Below are positions 2,581-35,338 of a DNA stretch of 35,838 bases, one piece after another (the first letter of the stretch is position 1; each line of letters opens with the position of its first letter). This stretch comes from a virus. The notes beneath the pieces are model-generated. The model ran no database searches. It had not been told where the DNA came from and saw only the letters and a program-made list of their open reading frames with translations. The stretch spans positions 1 through 35,838 of the IMG/VR virus record IMGVR_UViG_3300030085_000871; one strand, written 5' to 3'. The position numbers and the translations under genes are program-made.

Positions 2581-2790
2581 ATGATGATAGCCAATAAGAA
2601 AAAACCTAAAAATATTGCTGGTATGATGGGCAAGAAGGCATCACAGCCAGCGCAAATGATGGGTAAAATGACGGTGGATCCGTTAGAACGTGCGATGCAG
2701 AAAATGGCTGGACGGACGCAAGGCGGTGCAATGGATGGCATCAAACTTAAAAAGAAACCGACTATTATGACAAGTTATGGAATTCTGTAA
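2581..2790 (+). CDS. Small basic Met/Lys-rich protein with KKxxIMxxYG C-terminus
   Basis: A 69-residue, very basic protein rich in Met, Lys and Gly. It is tightly packed between the previous gene (1-base gap) and the portal gene, whose ATG overlaps its stop codon. It ends KKKPTIMTSYGIL. The same C-terminal pattern, lysines then IM-[ST]-x-YG, occurs in two tiny proteins at 27140 and 27199, far away in the lysis region. The shared ending suggests a common binding or packaging role, possibly DNA or virion association. No known family can be named from sequence alone. Confidence 0.75.
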   Translation: MMIANKKKPKNIAGMMGKKASQPAQMMGKMTVDPLERAMQKMAGRTQGGAMDGIKLKKKPTIMTSYGIL

Positions 2791-4394
2791 TGGCTGAAGT
2801 CACAAAACTCGTACAGCAGCTGGATAGGCGATATAAAACGCTACAGACACAGCGCAGCAACTGGGAACAGCACTGGCAGCAACTAGCCGACTATATGCTC
2901 CCTAGAAAGGCTGATATTGTCAAAAAACGTACACAGGGTGACAAACGAACAGAATTAATTTTTGATGGCACGGCAATACATGCAGTAGAGCTGCTGGCCT
3001 CAAGCTTGCACGGAATGTTGACTAGCCCAAGTACGCCCTGGTTTTCGATGCGCTATCGCAATCCAGGGCTACAGAGGGATGATGCAGCAAACGAATGGCT
3101 AGAAGTGTGTACAGATCAAATGTACCAGCACTTTAATCGTTCTAACTTTCAGCAAGAAATACACGAACTGTACTATGACTTGGTGGTATTTGGCACTGGC
3201 AGTTTTTACGTCAACATGGAAGAAGACGGATTGCGGTTCGCGTGTCGGCATATAGCAGAAATATGCATATCAGAAGATAGCCAGGGTCGGGTCGATACGA
3301 TCTATAGAAAGTTTAAACTGACCGCTCGATCTATTAAAATGCAGTTTCCAGACGCAACAATGCCGAAAGCTGTAGAAAAAGATGTCGATAATGATCCGTA
3401 CAAAGAACATGAAGTTGTTCATGCCGTGTTTCCCCGTGCGGAAGCTACTGGGGCATTTGCAAAAAATAAACCAGTAGCATCTGTATATTATTTAGCAGAT
3501 AGTCGGGAGCTGCTCAGTGAAGGTGGCTTTGACGAAATGCCGTTTATGTCACCACGTTTTGTTAAAGATAGCGTAAGCACCTATGGGCGCAGCCCAGCAA
3601 TGACTGCACTGCCTGACGTTAAGATGCTTAACAAAATGTCAGAAACAACAATTAAGGCTGCACAAAAACAAATCGATCCACCACTGATGGTTCCAGACGA
3701 TGGGTTTTTAGGCACAGTACGCACCTCGCCAGGTGCACTAAATTTTTACCGATCAGGAACGCGAGATAGGTTAGAGCCGCTGCAAATCGGAGCCAACAAC
3801 CCACTAGGGCTGAACATGGAAGAGCAAAGGCGTAACGCAATACGTCAAGCATTCTATGTAGACCAGCTGCTACTGGGTCAGGGGCAAAACATGACAGCGA
3901 CAGAAGTGTTGCAGAGGAACGAAGAAAAAATGAGGTTGCTTGGCCCTGTTTTAGGACGGATGCAAGCAGAATTGCTCCAACCTCTTATATCACGCTCTTT
4001 TGCATTGCTTCTCAGGGCTGGCCTCCTCCCTCCAGCGCCTGAGGAGCTACAAGGTCAGGATATTGATATTGAATACGTAAGCCCCCTAGCGAAAGCGCAA
4101 AAACTTACAGATCTCCAGGCAATGCTGCGTGGATTTGAGATATTGCTGCAAGTCAGCCAGGTCGCACCAGTAACAGATTATCTCGATGGCGATAAGATGG
4201 TGCAGTATCTTGTTGAGACAGCTGGCCTACCAGCCAGGGTTATAAGAGGCGATGATGAGGTGGCAGAGATCCGACAGCAACAGGCAGAAGCCGCACAACA
4301 GCAACAGGCAATGCAAGAACAGATGCAAAGCGCTGAAGCAGCAAACAAGATAGCGCCATTTATTAAGGCGGCTGGAACAGTACCACTAGAATGA
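2790..4394 (+). CDS. Portal (head-to-tail connector) protein, T7 type
   Basis: The 534-residue protein matches the head-tail connector family of T7-like phages in length and pattern: an N-terminal helical stretch (LDRRYKTLQTQRSNWEQHWQQLADYMLPR), a FDGTAIHAVELLASSLHGMLTS-like segment split by a short turn, a conserved SPAMTALPDVKMLNKM region in the middle, and a Gln-rich C-terminal helix (QQQAEAAQQQQAMQEQM). Twelve copies form the ring through which DNA enters and leaves the capsid, on which the terminase and tail assemble. ATG 2790 overlaps the stop of the preceding gene, and its own end overlaps the next gene, so translation is coupled. Confidence 0.93.
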   Translation: MAEVTKLVQQLDRRYKTLQTQRSNWEQHWQQLADYMLPRKADIVKKRTQGDKRTELIFDGTAIHAVELLASSLHGMLTSPSTPWFSMRYRNPGLQRDDAANEWLEVCTDQMYQHFNRSNFQQEIHELYYDLVVFGTGSFYVNMEEDGLRFACRHIAEICISEDSQGRVDTIYRKFKLTARSIKMQFPDATMPKAVEKDVDNDPYKEHEVVHAVFPRAEATGAFAKNKPVASVYYLADSRELLSEGGFDEMPFMSPRFVKDSVSTYGRSPAMTALPDVKMLNKMSETTIKAAQKQIDPPLMVPDDGFLGTVRTSPGALNFYRSGTRDRLEPLQIGANNPLGLNMEEQRRNAIRQAFYVDQLLLGQGQNMTATEVLQRNEEKMRLLGPVLGRMQAELLQPLISRSFALLLRAGLLPPAPEELQGQDIDIEYVSPLAKAQKLTDLQAMLRGFEILLQVSQVAPVTDYLDGDKMVQYLVETAGLPARVIRGDDEVAEIRQQQAEAAQQQQAMQEQMQSAEAANKIAPFIKAAGTVPLE

Positions 4395-28202: not shown

Positions 28203-28236
28203 CTTGATATAAAGCGACAAGAATATGGAGATGGTT

Positions 28237-29376
28237 ATGTTACAAGTTACACCTAAAAAATGGAAATCAAGAGCGAAACAAGGCAAGGCTCCTTGGTGCG
28301 TTGATACACGTTATGAATTAGCGGATGGTGCGCGAACTTATTACAACACACGCGAAGAAGCACAAGCGTACATCGATGCGCTTCTTAAAGAAACATCAGA
28401 CGTAAATAAATCTAACGATGCTTGGAAGTGGTCATTCTATGAGCTTGGAAAAAATTACATTGCACAAGTTGAAAAAGAATATCTAGCTGGCGAGCAATCA
28501 AAAAGCTACCACCAGGAAAAAGTCCGACACGTAGATTGTTTTTTAGATTGCGTTGTCGATGGTATGTCTGTTGCTGACATGCGTGTTGCAAATCTTACAA
28601 AGGGTATGGTTGCACACCAAATTATGGATCAACTTAAAGTAGGTCGCAAAGTCAAAACTGTAACAAACATTTGTGGCTCAATCGGCATGATGATTAACTA
28701 TGGTATCATCGAGGGTTGTAGAGAAACTAATCCGTTTGATGGTGTGAAACGCAAAGGTGAAATACAAAGCAGTGCTGGCGAGACTAAAGCGCAGCGCATT
28801 GCTACTGATGTTATCAACAGCATAATATCTCAGATGTGTCCTCGATGGCAGTTCTTTGCCAGGTTTGCGTCAACCACTGGTGTACGTCAGGGTGAGCAAC
28901 GCGCTATGACTTGGGGTCAAATAGATTTAGATGGTGGCAAGGTGGTTATTGACCGCGCTATCGAACACAAAACTACAAATGTAAAAGATCCTAAAAGTTA
29001 CTCAGGGTTGCGTACTATACCTTTGACACGCGATGTACTTGCTCACCTCAAAGAGTTGTACATCCAGCAAGGTAGACCAAACGATCCGAACACGCTTGTC
29101 TTTGGCACAGAGTTCAATCACCCAGTTACATCAGCAAAGTATCTAAAGCGCATCAAAGACGCTTGTAGACGCGCTGGTGTTGCGCCAATTACCTGGCATG
29201 AGCTTAGACACTACTATGCATCTAAGCTTCTCCAGGCGTACCCTGACGATCTGTGGCGTGTAAAAACATACATGGGTCACAGCGACATTCGTATTACGCA
29301 AAGCATTTACGGTCACTGGTTAGAGTCAGACGCTGACAATGCAGCGGCTGTAGATAAGCTATCCGCGATCTTTTAG
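28237..29376 (+). CDS. int: Tyrosine integrase
   Basis: 379 residues when started at ATG 28237, which has GGAG 6 bases ahead; ATG 28225 does not. An N-terminal arm-binding domain and a SAM-like core-binding domain (about 55-165) precede the catalytic domain. In the catalytic domain I see the active-site Arg in TTGVRQGEQRAMTW, the box HELRHYYASKLL, and MGHSDIRITQSIYGHW with the His and the nucleophilic Tyr. It joins attP to the host tRNA and excises with an accessory factor. The attachment core lies about 160 bases upstream. It converges on and overlaps the minus-strand gene at 29359. Confidence 0.93.
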   Translation: MLQVTPKKWKSRAKQGKAPWCVDTRYELADGARTYYNTREEAQAYIDALLKETSDVNKSNDAWKWSFYELGKNYIAQVEKEYLAGEQSKSYHQEKVRHVDCFLDCVVDGMSVADMRVANLTKGMVAHQIMDQLKVGRKVKTVTNICGSIGMMINYGIIEGCRETNPFDGVKRKGEIQSSAGETKAQRIATDVINSIISQMCPRWQFFARFASTTGVRQGEQRAMTWGQIDLDGGKVVIDRAIEHKTTNVKDPKSYSGLRTIPLTRDVLAHLKELYIQQGRPNDPNTLVFGTEFNHPVTSAKYLKRIKDACRRAGVAPITWHELRHYYASKLLQAYPDDLWRVKTYMGHSDIRITQSIYGHWLESDADNAAAVDKLSAIF

Positions 29377-29994: not shown

Positions 29995-30681
29995 CTATCT
30001 CTCCCCAGTATTGAGTTGTTCTAATCTTAGTTTCCAGTATGCGTTAAGCTCACTGCTGTTTTTTGGATTGTCTTTTTTAATCACCATAAAATCTTTGCCG
30101 TGCTCTTCTAAAATCTTTTTGAGCTGCCAGGTTTCTGTGGCTGCTTTAATTTTATCTTCCATCATTTTTTTTAGCTGTTGCGGTGTACTAGGCGCAGTAT
30201 TTTGCTCTTCACGTACAGCAGCATCGTGCTCTGCTTCTGGATCAGGTTTCTTTGGCTGTGGTTTCGGTTTAGGCGCAGCTGGTGGCTCATCAGCTGCATT
30301 ACCATCATCGTCTGCATCTTCATCAGGCTCAATACCAGCCAAGCCTAGCAAACCATATCGCTTGGCATAGGTTGCAGCGGATCCTAATCCTTGCATACCT
30401 TTTTTCTCAGGCTCCATGTAAAACTTACTGGTAAACAAACCACCGCTTGTATGCTCAAAGGTAGTCTGTATGTAATGACCTTGCTCATCTTTGCCAGCAG
30501 CCTGGATCAGTGCAAACCCATTGTCGTTAAGAGCTGGTTTAATTGCTTTAATGCATGACTTCAGACTAGCGTATCTGTTTCTGAAGTGCGGATTAGTGGC
30601 ATCCTTGTGCGGTGTTTTCATTTGTGACTGCGCTAATGCTAGTGCAGCTATTGCTTCTTTGTTGCTCACTCCATCCCCCAT
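29995..30681 (-). CDS. erf: ERF-family single-strand annealing protein
   Basis: 228 residues from ATG 30681; GTG 30669, which overlaps the nuclease stop (GTGA), is an equally good start. The N-terminal domain has the ERF signature: LALAQSQMKTPHKDATNPHF, RYASLKSCIKAIKPALNDNG, and SAATYAKRYGLLGLAGIEPD. The C-terminal third is Pro/Lys/Ala-rich (PKPKPQPKKPD) with a helical end. ERF proteins anneal complementary single strands during phage recombination and circularisation, which fits a phage with a terminase-processed genome. It works with the neighbouring RecB-like nuclease. Confidence 0.88.
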   Translation of the reverse strand: MGDGVSNKEAIAALALAQSQMKTPHKDATNPHFRNRYASLKSCIKAIKPALNDNGFALIQAAGKDEQGHYIQTTFEHTSGGLFTSKFYMEPEKKGMQGLGSAATYAKRYGLLGLAGIEPDEDADDDGNAADEPPAAPKPKPQPKKPDPEAEHDAAVREEQNTAPSTPQQLKKMMEDKIKAATETWQLKKILEEHGKDFMVIKKDNPKNSSELNAYWKLRLEQLNTGER

Positions 30682-31631
30682 AGTAGTCTTGCCTCGCGTA
30701 AATACGCTGGGCTTTCTTGCCAAAAAATTGAATTCCAATCTGGTGATACCAGGCCTAGCAGCTCTTCTTTTGTTTGAGCTGCACGTAATATGTTTTCTGT
30801 AATTTTGTGTTGCAGTGCTATGTCTTGCACTACGTCATCCAGGTAATCAGGCTTCAGCTCTGGCGTGTTGGTTTGATCAAACACACGGTAGTCAGTAGCG
30901 TTTGCATAAACCAAAAACGGTGGCTGTTTGCCGTTCAATGCATAGAACCCAGCAACCTGATAAACATTGTTCATATCAAACATGCCTGACAACGACGAGG
31001 GTAGGGATCCTTTTGCCCAGGTACGCTCGCCCTTTTTGTTTGTCGTAGGTCTAGACCACTTGGTTTTTAAATCACCTCTACGTCCGTAATCAGGTAGTGT
31101 GTTATGCGGTAGTACATTGCCTGGTAGCTGTTCAAGCAGCTCGATCTCACCGATAAACCTATTATCACGTGCCATAGCTTCTTTTAGCCCTATGACTGCG
31201 TTCTCTACTACGTCAGGTATTTCTTCTAGGTATTTGTCTAAACGCTCTCTATCGTCCTCTTCTACGCTCTTATCGTAGTTCTTAGGACGGTATGCTGCTA
31301 AGTTCTCTTTGGCTATTAGCTGCGCTTCTTGTAAGCTCAGTGTCTGTCCGAATTCACCATCAGGGATAAGGCATAGATCACAACCATCTTGCACAGCTCT
31401 GCCAGCAGCCATTGCAGCAGACCCACGATTGTTTTTAAATATATCAATCGTGAGCCTTGCCTCTGCTAGATCACTTTGGTGTGCCTCAATATCTTTAAGC
31501 GTTGCAAACGCTTTGTTTAGAGCTGGTCTTACATGCACTTTCTCAAATAACTTCTTAGCCCGATCACCAGACCTAGGGTTAGAATGATGAAAGTAGTCAT
31601 GTCGAACAGCCCATTCTGGGATGTCAAACAT
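30666..31631 (-). CDS. RecB-like PD-(D/E)XK exonuclease
   Basis: 321 residues from ATG 31631, which has AAGGAG 8 bases ahead; the GTG at 31640 lies inside that site and is rejected. A GRRGDLKTKW segment (D-x-K core) with VYQVAGFYALNG downstream (the QxxxY motif of RecB-type nucleases) identifies a lambda-exonuclease/YqaJ-like family member. It chews 5' ends to make single strands for ERF. It is the first gene of the minus-strand operon, driven by the promoter at 31661-31690. Confidence 0.8.
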   Translation of the reverse strand: MFDIPEWAVRHDYFHHSNPRSGDRAKKLFEKVHVRPALNKAFATLKDIEAHQSDLAEARLTIDIFKNNRGSAAMAAGRAVQDGCDLCLIPDGEFGQTLSLQEAQLIAKENLAAYRPKNYDKSVEEDDRERLDKYLEEIPDVVENAVIGLKEAMARDNRFIGEIELLEQLPGNVLPHNTLPDYGRRGDLKTKWSRPTTNKKGERTWAKGSLPSSLSGMFDMNNVYQVAGFYALNGKQPPFLVYANATDYRVFDQTNTPELKPDYLDDVVQDIALQHKITENILRAAQTKEELLGLVSPDWNSIFWQESPAYLREARLLWGME

Positions 31632-31660
31632 CCTTACCACTCCTTATCTTGTCGCACTCT

Positions 31661-31690
31661 TAGATAATCAGCTTACAAAAATGATGTCAA
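31661..31690 (-). promoter_or_regulatory. Sigma-70-like promoter for the recombination operon
   Basis: On the minus strand: TTGACA (31690-31685), 18 bases, TATCTA (31666-31661). The match at -35 is perfect. The octamer GCGACAAG begins 5 bases after the -10 (31655-31648), so it lies at the transcription start and just ahead of the AAGGAG site. It reads the nuclease, ERF and downstream genes. Confidence 0.65.
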
Positions 31691-31742
31691 GAATTGATTT
31701 AAGAATGCGTAAGAAAAAGAATATAGAGTTGAATGCTATCGG

Positions 31743-32474
31743 TCAAGAATTGCTGCAATCATCACAGCCACATTCCTGTGATTCTATGTCTACGTATGTC
31801 ACGCCACGTAGGTCAGGTCGGAAAAGTACAGAGCAATACGGTGTCGCCCACTCAACTTCTAAACCCTTTAAGTGGATGCCAAGCTTTGGGCTGTGTACCG
31901 TGTATCGTTTGCCTGGTTCTGGATAAAGAACACCGCCAACAAGGTGTGTTGGGTTGCGTCCAGGTAATGTCAGTTCCTCTTTTAGTCGTATGACACTTAC
32001 GTGTTCGATACAGCCAGGGTGGACGATTTTCTCAACAACTGGATGCCTTAAAAAGAAAGCTAGTGCATCACGATACTCATACCATTCCCCTTGATATTCT
32101 GGGTCTGTTGACCATTTAACAGCAGCTAGATCATCACCAAGATAAGCAGCAATTTGCACACCAGTAGTCCATTTATTATAATATTTACGCTCTATTTGCC
32201 CATCTTTAGTAATAAATGACTCGCCTATAATTGGTGTTGGTGGATTTTGAAACATAACTTTCTGCACAGACACACCTAGTATATCAGCATACTTCTCAGC
32301 GTTCTCTAACGTCATCTGTACATGACCATGAATGTGTCTTGATAGTGTTTCGGGCATGACGCCAGCTGCTTGTGCAACTTGCTTTTTTGTCATGCCAGAG
32401 GCGCGGATCACTGCGTCTAAATTATTTGGCATAGTAGCTGGATCTTTAAATAGATTATGAATTGTTGCTTGCAT
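31743..32474 (-). CDS. CI-like repressor with XRE helix-turn-helix
   Basis: 243 residues. Residues 15-75 form an XRE-type helix-turn-helix (SGMTKKQVAQAAGVMPETLS, then HGHVQMTLENAEKYADILGV). The C-terminal part is not a recognisable S24 peptidase: I do not see the usual Ser/Lys catalytic pattern. Instead there are GVQIAAYLGDDLAAVKW and a Cys-rich end (ECGCDDCSNS). The prophage may thus be induced without RecA-driven self-cleavage. It is divergent from the Cro-like gene with a 98-base shared control region. Confidence 0.75.
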   Translation of the reverse strand: MQATIHNLFKDPATMPNNLDAVIRASGMTKKQVAQAAGVMPETLSRHIHGHVQMTLENAEKYADILGVSVQKVMFQNPPTPIIGESFITKDGQIERKYYNKWTTGVQIAAYLGDDLAAVKWSTDPEYQGEWYEYRDALAFFLRHPVVEKIVHPGCIEHVSVIRLKEELTLPGRNPTHLVGGVLYPEPGKRYTVHSPKLGIHLKGLEVEWATPYCSVLFRPDLRGVTYVDIESQECGCDDCSNS

Positions 32475-32572
32475 AATATCTTACCTTGTCGCTTTCGGTC
32501 AAACTGATAACAGAATTAAGAGGGTTGCAAATTAAAGTCAAGGTTTTTACAATTCTTGCAATAAGGATTGCT
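32475..32572 (+). promoter_or_regulatory. Divergent repressor/Cro control region
   Basis: Rightward: TTGCAA (32525-32530), 17 bases, TACAAT (32548-32553), with AAGGA before the ATG at 32573. Leftward: TTGACT (32541-32536) and a weaker TAATTC (32518-32513), 17 bases apart. GCGACAAG lies at 32492-32485, ahead of the repressor start. Two TTGCAA boxes (32525 and 32555) could be operator half-sites. Operators are inferred from position. Confidence 0.55.
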
Positions 32573-32785
32573 ATGACACTTGACGATTATAGAAAGCAAA
32601 ACGGCTGGAGTTATTCAGAGCTAGCCAGACAACTGGGTGCATCACATGCAGCAGTGGCTAGGCGCTGGTGTTTAGCTTTTGACGATAAGAACAGACTAAT
32701 ACCAAACCTCGAATACATGTCAGCGATCATGTTAAAAACCAATGGTCAGGTAATGCCAAATGACTTCTACATCGAACGTTACTGA
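32573..32785 (+). CDS. Cro-like helix-turn-helix protein
   Basis: 70 residues from ATG 32573 (AAGGA 5 bases ahead); a longer reading from 32486 would cover the promoter and is unlikely. LDDYRKQNGWSYSELARQLG followed by ASHAAVARRWCLAF is an XRE/Cro-type helix-turn-helix. It diverges from the CI-like gene and begins the rightward operon, as expected for Cro. It overlaps the next gene by 26 bases. Confidence 0.75.
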   Translation: MTLDDYRKQNGWSYSELARQLGASHAAVARRWCLAFDDKNRLIPNLEYMSAIMLKTNGQVMPNDFYIERY

Positions 32786-33143
32786 GGACGATTTACAGCG
32801 TCAGGTGGCTTCCTGGCTTGATGTAGCGCTGCCTGATGGGTGTGTTTACCACCACAGCCCAAACGAAGGTAAGCGGCATATCAACTACATCAATCGGTTA
32901 AAAAAGATGGGTACAAAGTACGGCTGGCCTGACCTGGAATTGTTTTGTCCTTCTACTGCAACCAAGAGCGGCAACAACGAAGCGATCTTTATCGAGCTCA
33001 AAGCAAAGCGTGGTGTGATGAACGAGAACCAAAGGCGTATGCGCGATCAGATATTAGAGGCTGGTTTTGCTTGGGCGCTGTGTAAGAGCATCGAGGACGT
33101 AACAGAGTTCTTGACGCCATTGGTTAAACTGAAGGTGAAGTGA
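32760..33143 (+). CDS. VRR-NUC domain nuclease
   Basis: 127 residues covering a complete VRR-NUC domain: VYHHSPNEGKRH near residue 22, the catalytic KYGWPDLELFCPS (D of PD), and FIELKAKRGVMNENQ (E-x-K), then a helix with WALCKSIEDV. Stand-alone phage VRR-NUC proteins are structure-specific nucleases, for example for Holliday junctions or flaps. Placement between Cro and the methyltransferase suggests early expression and a role in phage DNA recombination. The stop overlaps the methyltransferase start region (TGATG). Confidence 0.88.
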   Translation: MTSTSNVTEDDLQRQVASWLDVALPDGCVYHHSPNEGKRHINYINRLKKMGTKYGWPDLELFCPSTATKSGNNEAIFIELKAKRGVMNENQRRMRDQILEAGFAWALCKSIEDVTEFLTPLVKLKVK

Positions 33144-34093
33144 TGTTACGGCATGTGGATCTTTGCAGTGGGATAGGTGGATTTAGTCTTGGTTTTGAGT
33201 GGGCAGAGTTAAGTAAACCAGTTTTGTTCTGCGACATAGAGCCTTGGAGCCGACAGATATTAGCAAAGCATTGGCCTGATGTGCCGATAGCTGAAAACGT
33301 AAAGGAGTTAGCAAATGACCCAGATGGACTTGTTCCAGACTGCGACATCATCACAGCCGGATATCCGTGCCAATCATTTTCACTTGCCGGGAAGCGAAGA
33401 GGCACAGAAGATGACCGACATATCTGGCCTTTCATTTTTACCATTATTAAAGGCAAGCGACCCTCTTTTTGCGTTTTCGAAAATGTTTATGGGCATGTCA
33501 CTTTGGGGCTCGACCAAGTGTTATCTGACTTGGAGAGGGAAGGCTACGCCACAAGGCCGTTCATTGTTCCAGCTTGTGCCACGGACGCACCTCACAGAAG
33601 AGATAGACTCTGGATTATCGGAAGAAATGTGGCCGACACCGACATCTTCAACAGGGGGGCCATCGAAAAATCCAGAAAACCCAAGAGGCAAACATGGGGG
33701 CAATCCTCTAGCAACAGCAGTAGCGATGTGGCCGACACCCAGAGTGACAGGACAGGAAAATCTAGACACGCTGATAAAACGCAAGGGTCTACAGAAAGCT
33801 CTGCAACACAACCTTACGGCAGCAGTACAAATGTGGCCGACACCCAGAGCAAGCGAGTACAAAGACACGGGGCCAGTGGGCAGCAAGAGCCACACTCACA
33901 TGCAAGAGAAAAAGTATTTATGTGCAGCAGTGAAAGACCCAGAGCAACCACTTGGGATGTTGAACCCCCAGTGGGTCGAGTGGCTCATGGGATACCCAGA
34001 AGGGTGGACAGACTTAGAGGATTAGGAAACGCCATAGTGCCACAGATAGCGATGCGTATCGGGCAGACAATTAAGGCAACGTATGATGCCTGA
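33143..34093 (+). CDS. C5-cytosine DNA methyltransferase
   Basis: 316 residues from ATG 33143, with GAAGGTGAAG ahead; a GTG at 33140 is possible. Motifs in order: I DLCSGIGGFSLGFE (6-19), IV GYPCQSFSLAG with the catalytic Cys, VI FENVYGH, VIII RRDRLWIIG, a variable target-recognition region, and IX/X VDRLRGLGNAIVPQIA. It methylates cytosine, probably to shield phage DNA. The target-recognition region (about 163-265) is polar with three VADT repeats at 163, 196 and 231, and is dual-coding with the gene at 33315. No cognate restriction gene is present. Confidence 0.93.
   Translation: MLRHVDLCSGIGGFSLGFEWAELSKPVLFCDIEPWSRQILAKHWPDVPIAENVKELANDPDGLVPDCDIITAGYPCQSFSLAGKRRGTEDDRHIWPFIFTIIKGKRPSFCVFENVYGHVTLGLDQVLSDLEREGYATRPFIVPACATDAPHRRDRLWIIGRNVADTDIFNRGAIEKSRKPKRQTWGQSSSNSSSDVADTQSDRTGKSRHADKTQGSTESSATQPYGSSTNVADTQSKRVQRHGASGQQEPHSHAREKVFMCSSERPRATTWDVEPPVGRVAHGIPRRVDRLRGLGNAIVPQIAMRIGQTIKATYDA
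33315..34025 (+). CDS. Gene nested in another frame of the methyltransferase (MWPTP-repeat protein)
   Basis: 236 residues, read one base forward of the methyltransferase frame and entirely inside it. ATG 33315 lies 8 bases after AAAGGAG. The protein has FAFSKMFMGMSLWGSTKCYL and TWRGKATPQGRSLFQL, three MWPTP boxes (residues 105, 138, 173), and ends NPQWVEWLMGYPEGWTDLED. I recall this WPTP/LMGYPxGW pattern in proteins near phage cytosine methyltransferases, so it is likely real; no function is known to me. It may accompany or modulate the methyltransferase. The frame's long open span and ribosome binding site support expression. Confidence 0.75.
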   Translation: MTQMDLFQTATSSQPDIRANHFHLPGSEEAQKMTDISGLSFLPLLKASDPLFAFSKMFMGMSLWGSTKCYLTWRGKATPQGRSLFQLVPRTHLTEEIDSGLSEEMWPTPTSSTGGPSKNPENPRGKHGGNPLATAVAMWPTPRVTGQENLDTLIKRKGLQKALQHNLTAAVQMWPTPRASEYKDTGPVGSKSHTHMQEKKYLCAAVKDPEQPLGMLNPQWVEWLMGYPEGWTDLED

Positions 34094-34906: not shown

Positions 34907-35338
34907 GTGGACAACCCTGACGTAGCACAGCTATCAGATATGTTTTTTGAGGCAGCAGAAACTGAACGTGCGCTCCCACCAGCAATACGAAAGCAAAAAC
35001 TAGGATCATGGCCTGAGTATGCACAGCAGTGGAGTGCGTATGGTTATTCTGAGTTTAAGCCTAAACATCCTAGACCATCTCCCCAGCAAGTAGATGCATA
35101 CACCAAAGCGCTATACCTGGGTATTGAGCATATGAATGCAGATGATCGTAAGATGGTTTGGGCTGTAAGCCACAGTGCCGCCTTCCGAGAAAGAGGCGCA
35201 CAGTGGCAGAAGCTTGCAAGAATGAATGGTTTACGTGATGGTAGACAGATCAAACGCAGATACCAGGATGCATTGGTAAGGCTCTGGGCAAAACTCAAAT
35301 ACACAGATGATGAGATCCTTGCAGAATATTTTTCATAA
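34907..35338 (+). CDS. DUF6362-like DNA-binding regulator
   Basis: 143 residues from GTG 34907, with GGGAG 8 bases ahead. ALPPAIRKQKLGSWPEYAQQ, then a Pro-rich link (KHPRPSPQQVDAY), and a C-terminal helical domain (VWAVSHSAAF ... WQKLARMNGLRDGRQIKRRY) resemble DUF6362 proteins seen in alphaproteobacterial phages. The C-terminal half looks like a helix-turn-helix of sigma/transposase style. Placed right before the terminase genes under an operator-laden promoter, it is a good candidate for a late-gene switch. This is inference from location and pattern. Confidence 0.65.
   Translation: MDNPDVAQLSDMFFEAAETERALPPAIRKQKLGSWPEYAQQWSAYGYSEFKPKHPRPSPQQVDAYTKALYLGIEHMNADDRKMVWAVSHSAAFRERGAQWQKLARMNGLRDGRQIKRRYQDALVRLWAKLKYTDDEILAEYFS

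Follow-up and report, generated by a model that had tools for sequence, protein, structure and literature searches.

We found that the cytosine methyltransferase gene of a viral DNA stretch of 35,838 nt (hereafter the window; IMG/VR record IMGVR_UViG_3300030085_000871) contains a second, complete gene in its +1 frame. Taken together, sequence comparison, selection, and predicted structure make it highly probable that each frame encodes one subunit of a single split C5 cytosine methyltransferase (MTase). In the arrangement that we propose, the outer gene would encode the alpha chain, a SAM-binding catalytic domain with motifs I-VIII that is connected through an unfolded linker to motif X. The nested gene would encode the beta chain, made through internal initiation at the AAAGGAG/ATG within the outer gene. 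The N-terminal domain of beta would dock on alpha, its WPTP modules would form the target-recognition region, and motif IX, which holds the recognition domain in single-chain C5-MTases, would come from its C-terminal helix. We infer from these data that beta is translated, that it forms a heterodimer with alpha, and that its modules read DNA. The two-chain precedent of M.EcoHK31I and existing annotations of nested ORFs were already known; the breadth of the nested pair, the inversion of selection, and the array of shuffled modules are new. The coordinates of the two genes and their parts are given in Table 1.

Table 1. Positions in the window of the MTase gene, the nested gene and their elements
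Feature	Position	Strand	Basis or remark
Outer MTase gene, proposed alpha chain, 317 aa	33140..34093	+	Motifs I-VIII and X
Shine-Dalgarno sequence AAAGGAG of the nested gene	33301..33307	+	7 nt to the ATG; in MTase codons V-K-E
Nested gene, 236 aa, ATG start, proposed beta (specificity) subunit	33315..34025	+	PHROG_1008
Nested N-terminal domain, residues 28-90, two helices and a beta hairpin, YLTWRGKATPQGRSLFQLVP	33396..33584	+	Predicted
Three WPTP modules of the nested protein, in TRD position	33630..33956	+	Starts at 33630, 33729, and 33834
MTase linker, residues 181-283, predicted unfolded	33680..33988	+	pLDDT <50; frame-0 dN/dS about 1.35
Motif IX in the nested frame, MLNPQWVEWLMGYPEGWTDL	33957..34016	+	Motif scan, hhalign
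MTase C-terminal element (motif X), EPPVGRVAHGIPRRVDRLRGLGNAIVPQIA	33962..34051	+	MTase frame, over and past the motif IX DNA

The outer chain matches the C5-MTase profiles PF00145 (E = 7.5e-38), TIGR00675 (1.1e-31), and PHROG_363 (1.6e-67), and contains the characteristic motifs I, IV (PCQ), VI (ENV), VIII, and X. Neither motif IX nor a folded recognition domain was found in the same chain by motif scanning and AF2 modeling. Translation more likely starts at the ATG at 33143 than at the GTG at 33140. Directly 5′ of the MTase lies a gene for a VRR-NUC nuclease (32760-33143) whose stop codon overlaps the MTase start (TGATG), and the MTase is therefore probably translationally coupled to the nuclease gene. 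The AF2 model of the MTase, built with 111 sequences, is of high confidence over most of residues 1-165 and matches the fold of M.HhaI (Z 24, 206 residues, rmsd 3.3). The helices of motif X (residues 288-296 and 301-316) are also confidently predicted, while residues 181-283 have no secondary structure at all at a pLDDT below 50.

An earlier note on this DNA had described a frame of 236 codons lying wholly inside the MTase gene, shifted by +1, with its own AAAGGAG site, WPTP boxes, and an NPQWVEWLMGYPEGWTDL end. The ORF coordinates bear this out: the nested ORF begins and ends within the outer ORF, its Shine-Dalgarno sequence is spaced 7 nt from the ATG, three boxes are present, and the protein ends in NPQWVEWLMGYPEGWTDL. 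The Shine-Dalgarno sequence is kept upstream of the nested gene in the 80 loci compared. The Lys codon within it is AAG in 57 of 57 MTases, compared with 349 of 794 (44%) elsewhere in the same genes. Rfam gave no RNA match in the region.

The +1 frame of the MTase is above average in length even when its codons are shuffled (mean 115 codons), and the nested ORF might thus be an untranslated by-product of MTase codon usage. We regard this as scarcely credible. When the MTase was shuffled 20,000 times among synonymous codons, no +1 open stretch of at least 236 codons arose (maximum 234), nor did one arise in 20,000 shuffles drawn with the codon usage of the window (mean 92). In addition, the start codon and the Shine-Dalgarno sequence are conserved, the nested frame is under purifying selection (see below), and insertions and deletions of whole modules leave both frames open. 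The +1 open stretches in the other long genes of the window span 38-103 codons. Because no shuffle reached the observed length and both frames are open in 188 related loci, we concluded that the nested ORF is not there by chance, conservation being stronger evidence for the gene than its length.

A search of the nested protein against phages, proposed in the earlier note, did find relatives. All of the first 80 viral relatives carry the nested frame in the +1 frame of an MTase, and with a single exception these matches have an ATG start at the same place. Among the 600 stretches listed in a viral profile search, at least 588 encode relatives. The profile search of genome contigs detected 258 stretches in Bacillota, Pseudomonadota, Bacteroidota, and other phyla, whereas a scan of genome contigs with the single sequence gave no relatives. 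Viruses and genomes together contain at least 188 distinct loci with +1 nesting and an MTase frame open through the end motif, among 193 distinct loci classifiable by the patterns used; loci first scored as lacking an MTase turned out by tblastn to have an overlapping one. Homologous MTases therefore retain the open nested frame along with its ribosome-binding site, and the claim that this is a second real gene, with both proteins conserved, is upheld by these loci and by the selection on the nested frame. In a Roseovarius MAG (OX638333), the nested pair occurs at five places of a single bacterial chromosome (L214-L216, L219, and L220) with identical match scores; a prophage present in several copies or a repeat in the assembly may account for this.

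Among annotated phages, 93 records match the nested protein (tblastn). The nested ORF is listed in phage K1ind2 as ORF28, a 'putative Mte8-like protein', and in Paenibacillus phage Shelly as 'g55 internal gene', whereas other records, among them C72C1, pTO42E, and E. coli E21, have an entry for the MTase alone. The K1ind2 and Shelly proteins are records of PHROG_1008 ('DNA methyltransferase'), the same family in the same nested position in a C-specific methylase. They offer a name but no function. Literature searches did not find a paper that explains this nested gene. Judged by sequence comparison, the nested pair is widespread in phages and prophages, and its second gene is usually missed by annotation.

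In a +1 overlap, the third codon positions of the MTase are the second positions of the nested gene. We analyzed selection in 58 non-redundant loci using the closest pairs; at larger divergence the signal is blurred by module exchange. The differences at codon positions 1, 2, and 3 followed the pattern of an ordinary gene 5′ of the overlap (0.026, 0.008, and 0.093) and amounted to 0.017, 0.005, and 0.126 on its 3′ side. Within the recognition segment the pattern was inverted (0.098, 0.030, and 0.018). Here, dN/dS was 1.35 for the MTase and 0.18 for the nested gene, compared with 0.18 and 0.35 in the catalytic overlap and 0.47 and 0.37 in the end segment; outside the overlap, ordinary values of 0.11 and 0.07 were found for the same genes. 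Close pairs contained 1041 changes in the recognition segment that were silent in the nested gene and altered the MTase (rate 0.133), against 144 of the reverse kind (0.018). The inversion was present in 18 of 20 disjoint pairs, with one pair showing the opposite and one a tie (sign test, P about 4e-5). Codon-position inversion together with a dN/dS of 1.35 against 0.18 indicates that the recognition segment has the nested frame as its coding frame.

This codon-position test, which the earlier note had called for, thus revealed purifying selection in the nested frame. The accompanying claim of joint constraint on sequence recognition and the second protein was not borne out: both frames are under selection in the catalytic overlap, but constraint within the recognition segment falls on the nested frame alone, and there MTase residues 181-283 are predicted to be unfolded.

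The two chains also divide the conserved motifs between them. A motif scan found motif IX ('NPxWVEWLMGYPxGWTDL') in 117 of 117 nested chains and in none of 111 MTase chains; the first count is partly due to selection, since most nested loci were found by patterns that include the end motif, and the homologue searches relied on the conserved nested end. Motif X was present in 108 of the 111 MTase chains and in none of the 117 nested chains. The nested motif IX aligned with motif IX of single-chain MTases by hhalign (94.6%, E = 6.5e-8), an alignment of only 18 columns. The nested end resembles motif IX of M.HhaI, which reads ECARVMGYPDSY. Motifs VIII to X had all been assigned to the MTase at first; VIII and X are indeed there, while IX sits in the nested protein.

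Over residues 4-234 the nested protein matches PHROG_1008 (profile match, 6.2e-31). It had no match in Pfam, NCBIfam, or PADLOC, and no relatives in the PDB, either by sequence or by Foldseek with a low-confidence query model. Modeled alone with AF2, the chain is of low confidence (mean pLDDT 61, pTM 0.26), its N-terminal block reaching a pLDDT of about 78-83 at best. The DNA encoding the N-terminal domain overlaps MTase motifs IV-VIII and is under purifying selection in both frames. We propose that this is a docking domain; the low predicted order of the isolated chain would fit folding on a partner but does not prove it.

A protein with its own start site, an N-terminal domain, and no match to a known structure could also be an effector with a function of its own that happens to be overprinted on the MTase gene; it might, for instance, inhibit host restriction or the MTase. 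This explanation is improbable, because the nested protein carries a motif that the MTase lacks, its family occurs as an in-frame fusion to MTases at the recognition position, and 188 of the 193 classified loci are nested in +1, with tblastn finding an MTase at those scored as having none.

The fusions are seen in the single-chain MTases of loci L163, L168, and L092, in which PHROG_1008 matches the C-terminal half (9e-43, 4e-32, and 3e-29, respectively) and MTase PHROGs match the N-terminal half. We therefore take beta to be the best reading of the nested protein: it carries the motif IX that the MTase lacks, and its family is the C-terminal half of a single chain. Among the roles that the earlier note had considered, this partition of motif IX and the fusion to the single-chain recognition half support that of a specificity partner.

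Relatives differ in how they distribute motifs over the frames. Propionibacterium PFR2, Gordonia Trax, and the IMG/VR loci L163, L166-L168, and L170-L171 have motif IX in the MTase frame. Mycobacterium Tucker, Streptomyces Vash, Mycobacterium Phanphagia, and L169 have both IX and X in the +1 ORF. At L260, one +1 chain contains modules, IX, and X in canonical order, and the MTase frame stops past VIII. L170 and L171 (IMG/VR; 2648-3209) have an intermediate form with a module in the +1 frame and IX and X in the MTase frame, from which it follows that motif IX moves between frames in this family. These single-chain and split relatives link the nested protein, through gene fusion and gene fission, to the recognition half of C5-MTases.

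The order of motifs I-VIII, modules, and motif IX across both frames of the window equals that of single-chain MTases. Programmed frameshifting would yield the same order, by joining motifs I-VIII to the nested recognition segment and motif IX in one chain made beside the plain MTase. However, the nested gene has a conserved Shine-Dalgarno sequence and ATG about 290 nt upstream of motif VIII, its frame is constrained from its start, ahead of any plausible shift, and the product of a shift would be without motif X. We therefore consider frameshifting very improbable and retain two separately initiated subunits.

Two further loci contain additional ORFs. On the Paenibacillus bovis plasmid NZ_CP021170 (L190, 3438-3905), an intact nested pair is followed downstream by a second ORF that stands alone and has one WPTP module as well as motif IX (NPAWIECMMGFPEGWT); this ORF is perhaps an alternative beta chain, and no phage relatives of it were found. 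Streptococcus phage P0092 (L088, 1652-2071) has a single-chain C5-MTase with an annotated +1 ORF of 139 codons, labeled as a DNA methyltransferase, that has neither WPTP nor motif IX and is probably an annotation artefact.

The nested proteins contain between one and six segments, each starting with [WL]PTP and about 25-55 residues long; the window has three. Clustering of 295 such segments gave 86 clusters, which recur at varied places beside varied neighbors. Cluster 4, which includes the third module of the window, has 10 different left neighbors among its 13 members, and the protein at L051 is like that of the window, yet has one module only. Such recurrence beside varied neighbors is what an exchange of recognition modules would look like. 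L168 carries a module of the form LPTP[AV]VNDMGxGKTV...GNGHGxSL in its MTase frame, and L170 carries it in the +1 frame (57% over 47 aa, E = 4e-17). A tentative reading, which we hold to be possible though somewhat short of an even chance, is that of a swappable array acting in trans: each WPTP module would read its own site and phages would recombine the modules. Since over the array the MTase frame is only an open linker, the set of protected sites could then be rewritten with the catalytic chain untouched.

M.EcoHK31I (YGGCCR) is a proven two-polypeptide C5-MTase. Its small chain, too, is encoded within the large gene in another reading frame. The Bacillus phages SPR, phi3T, and rho11s encode single-chain multispecific C5-MTases with serial recognition modules between motifs VIII and IX. 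The window likewise has modules in series at the recognition position, three in number; in the Bacillus phage enzymes, however, modules and catalytic domain form one chain, whereas here the modules belong to a second protein in the +1 frame.

Both M.EcoHK31I and M.AquI are two-polypeptide C5-MTases; the small chain of M.EcoHK31I holds motif IX only, both of its chains are needed, and its recognition domain is predicted in the large chain (PMC3404938). Split MTase fragments reassemble best if the cut lies between motif VIII and the recognition domain (PMC3404938). Compared by description, the window shares with M.EcoHK31I a large chain with motifs I-VIII and X and a small chain with motif IX. 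M.EcoHK31I differs in being part of a restriction-modification system and in the predicted location of its recognition domain; in the window, the large-chain segment is predicted to be unfolded and is drifting, and the small chain has a shuffled module array. M.AquI (CYCGRG) is split after motif VIII and has the recognition region and motif IX in its second chain, as in the window, but in the window the first chain keeps motif X, and the second gene lies nested rather than at the end. The actinophage pairs Tucker 91/90, Vash 32/33, and Phanphagia 65/66, as well as L260, resemble M.AquI in having both IX and X in the second chain.

The window is probably a temperate phage or prophage, since it has genes for an integrase (28225-29376) and for a CI-like repressor (31743-32474). 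Within 29995-32782, leftward genes for an Erf-like annealing protein, a long ORF without family match, and the CI-like repressor face a rightward gene for a small Cro-like HTH protein at 32573, and the arrangement makes up a lysis-lysogeny switch next to the MTase. A DUF6362 protein (34907-35338; PF19889, 1e-10) with a weak Myb-like match is encoded about 0.8 kb downstream of the MTase.

Several recent annotations that we examined give the outer gene only, which under RefSeq-style annotation is often labeled a complete 'DNA cytosine methyltransferase'. If the pair is indeed one split enzyme, such MTases expressed alone would be inactive or lack specificity, and attempts to find their targets would be unsuccessful. 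The overlap would also be of a rare kind, in which a specificity protein evolves in one frame and the host protein gives only an unconstrained linker. A modular recognition subunit acting in trans would be useful for targeted methylation, and module swaps make the relation between sequence and target testable. For the temperate phage, the likely purpose of the pair would be to modify its own DNA against restriction, swapping modules to change the protected sites.
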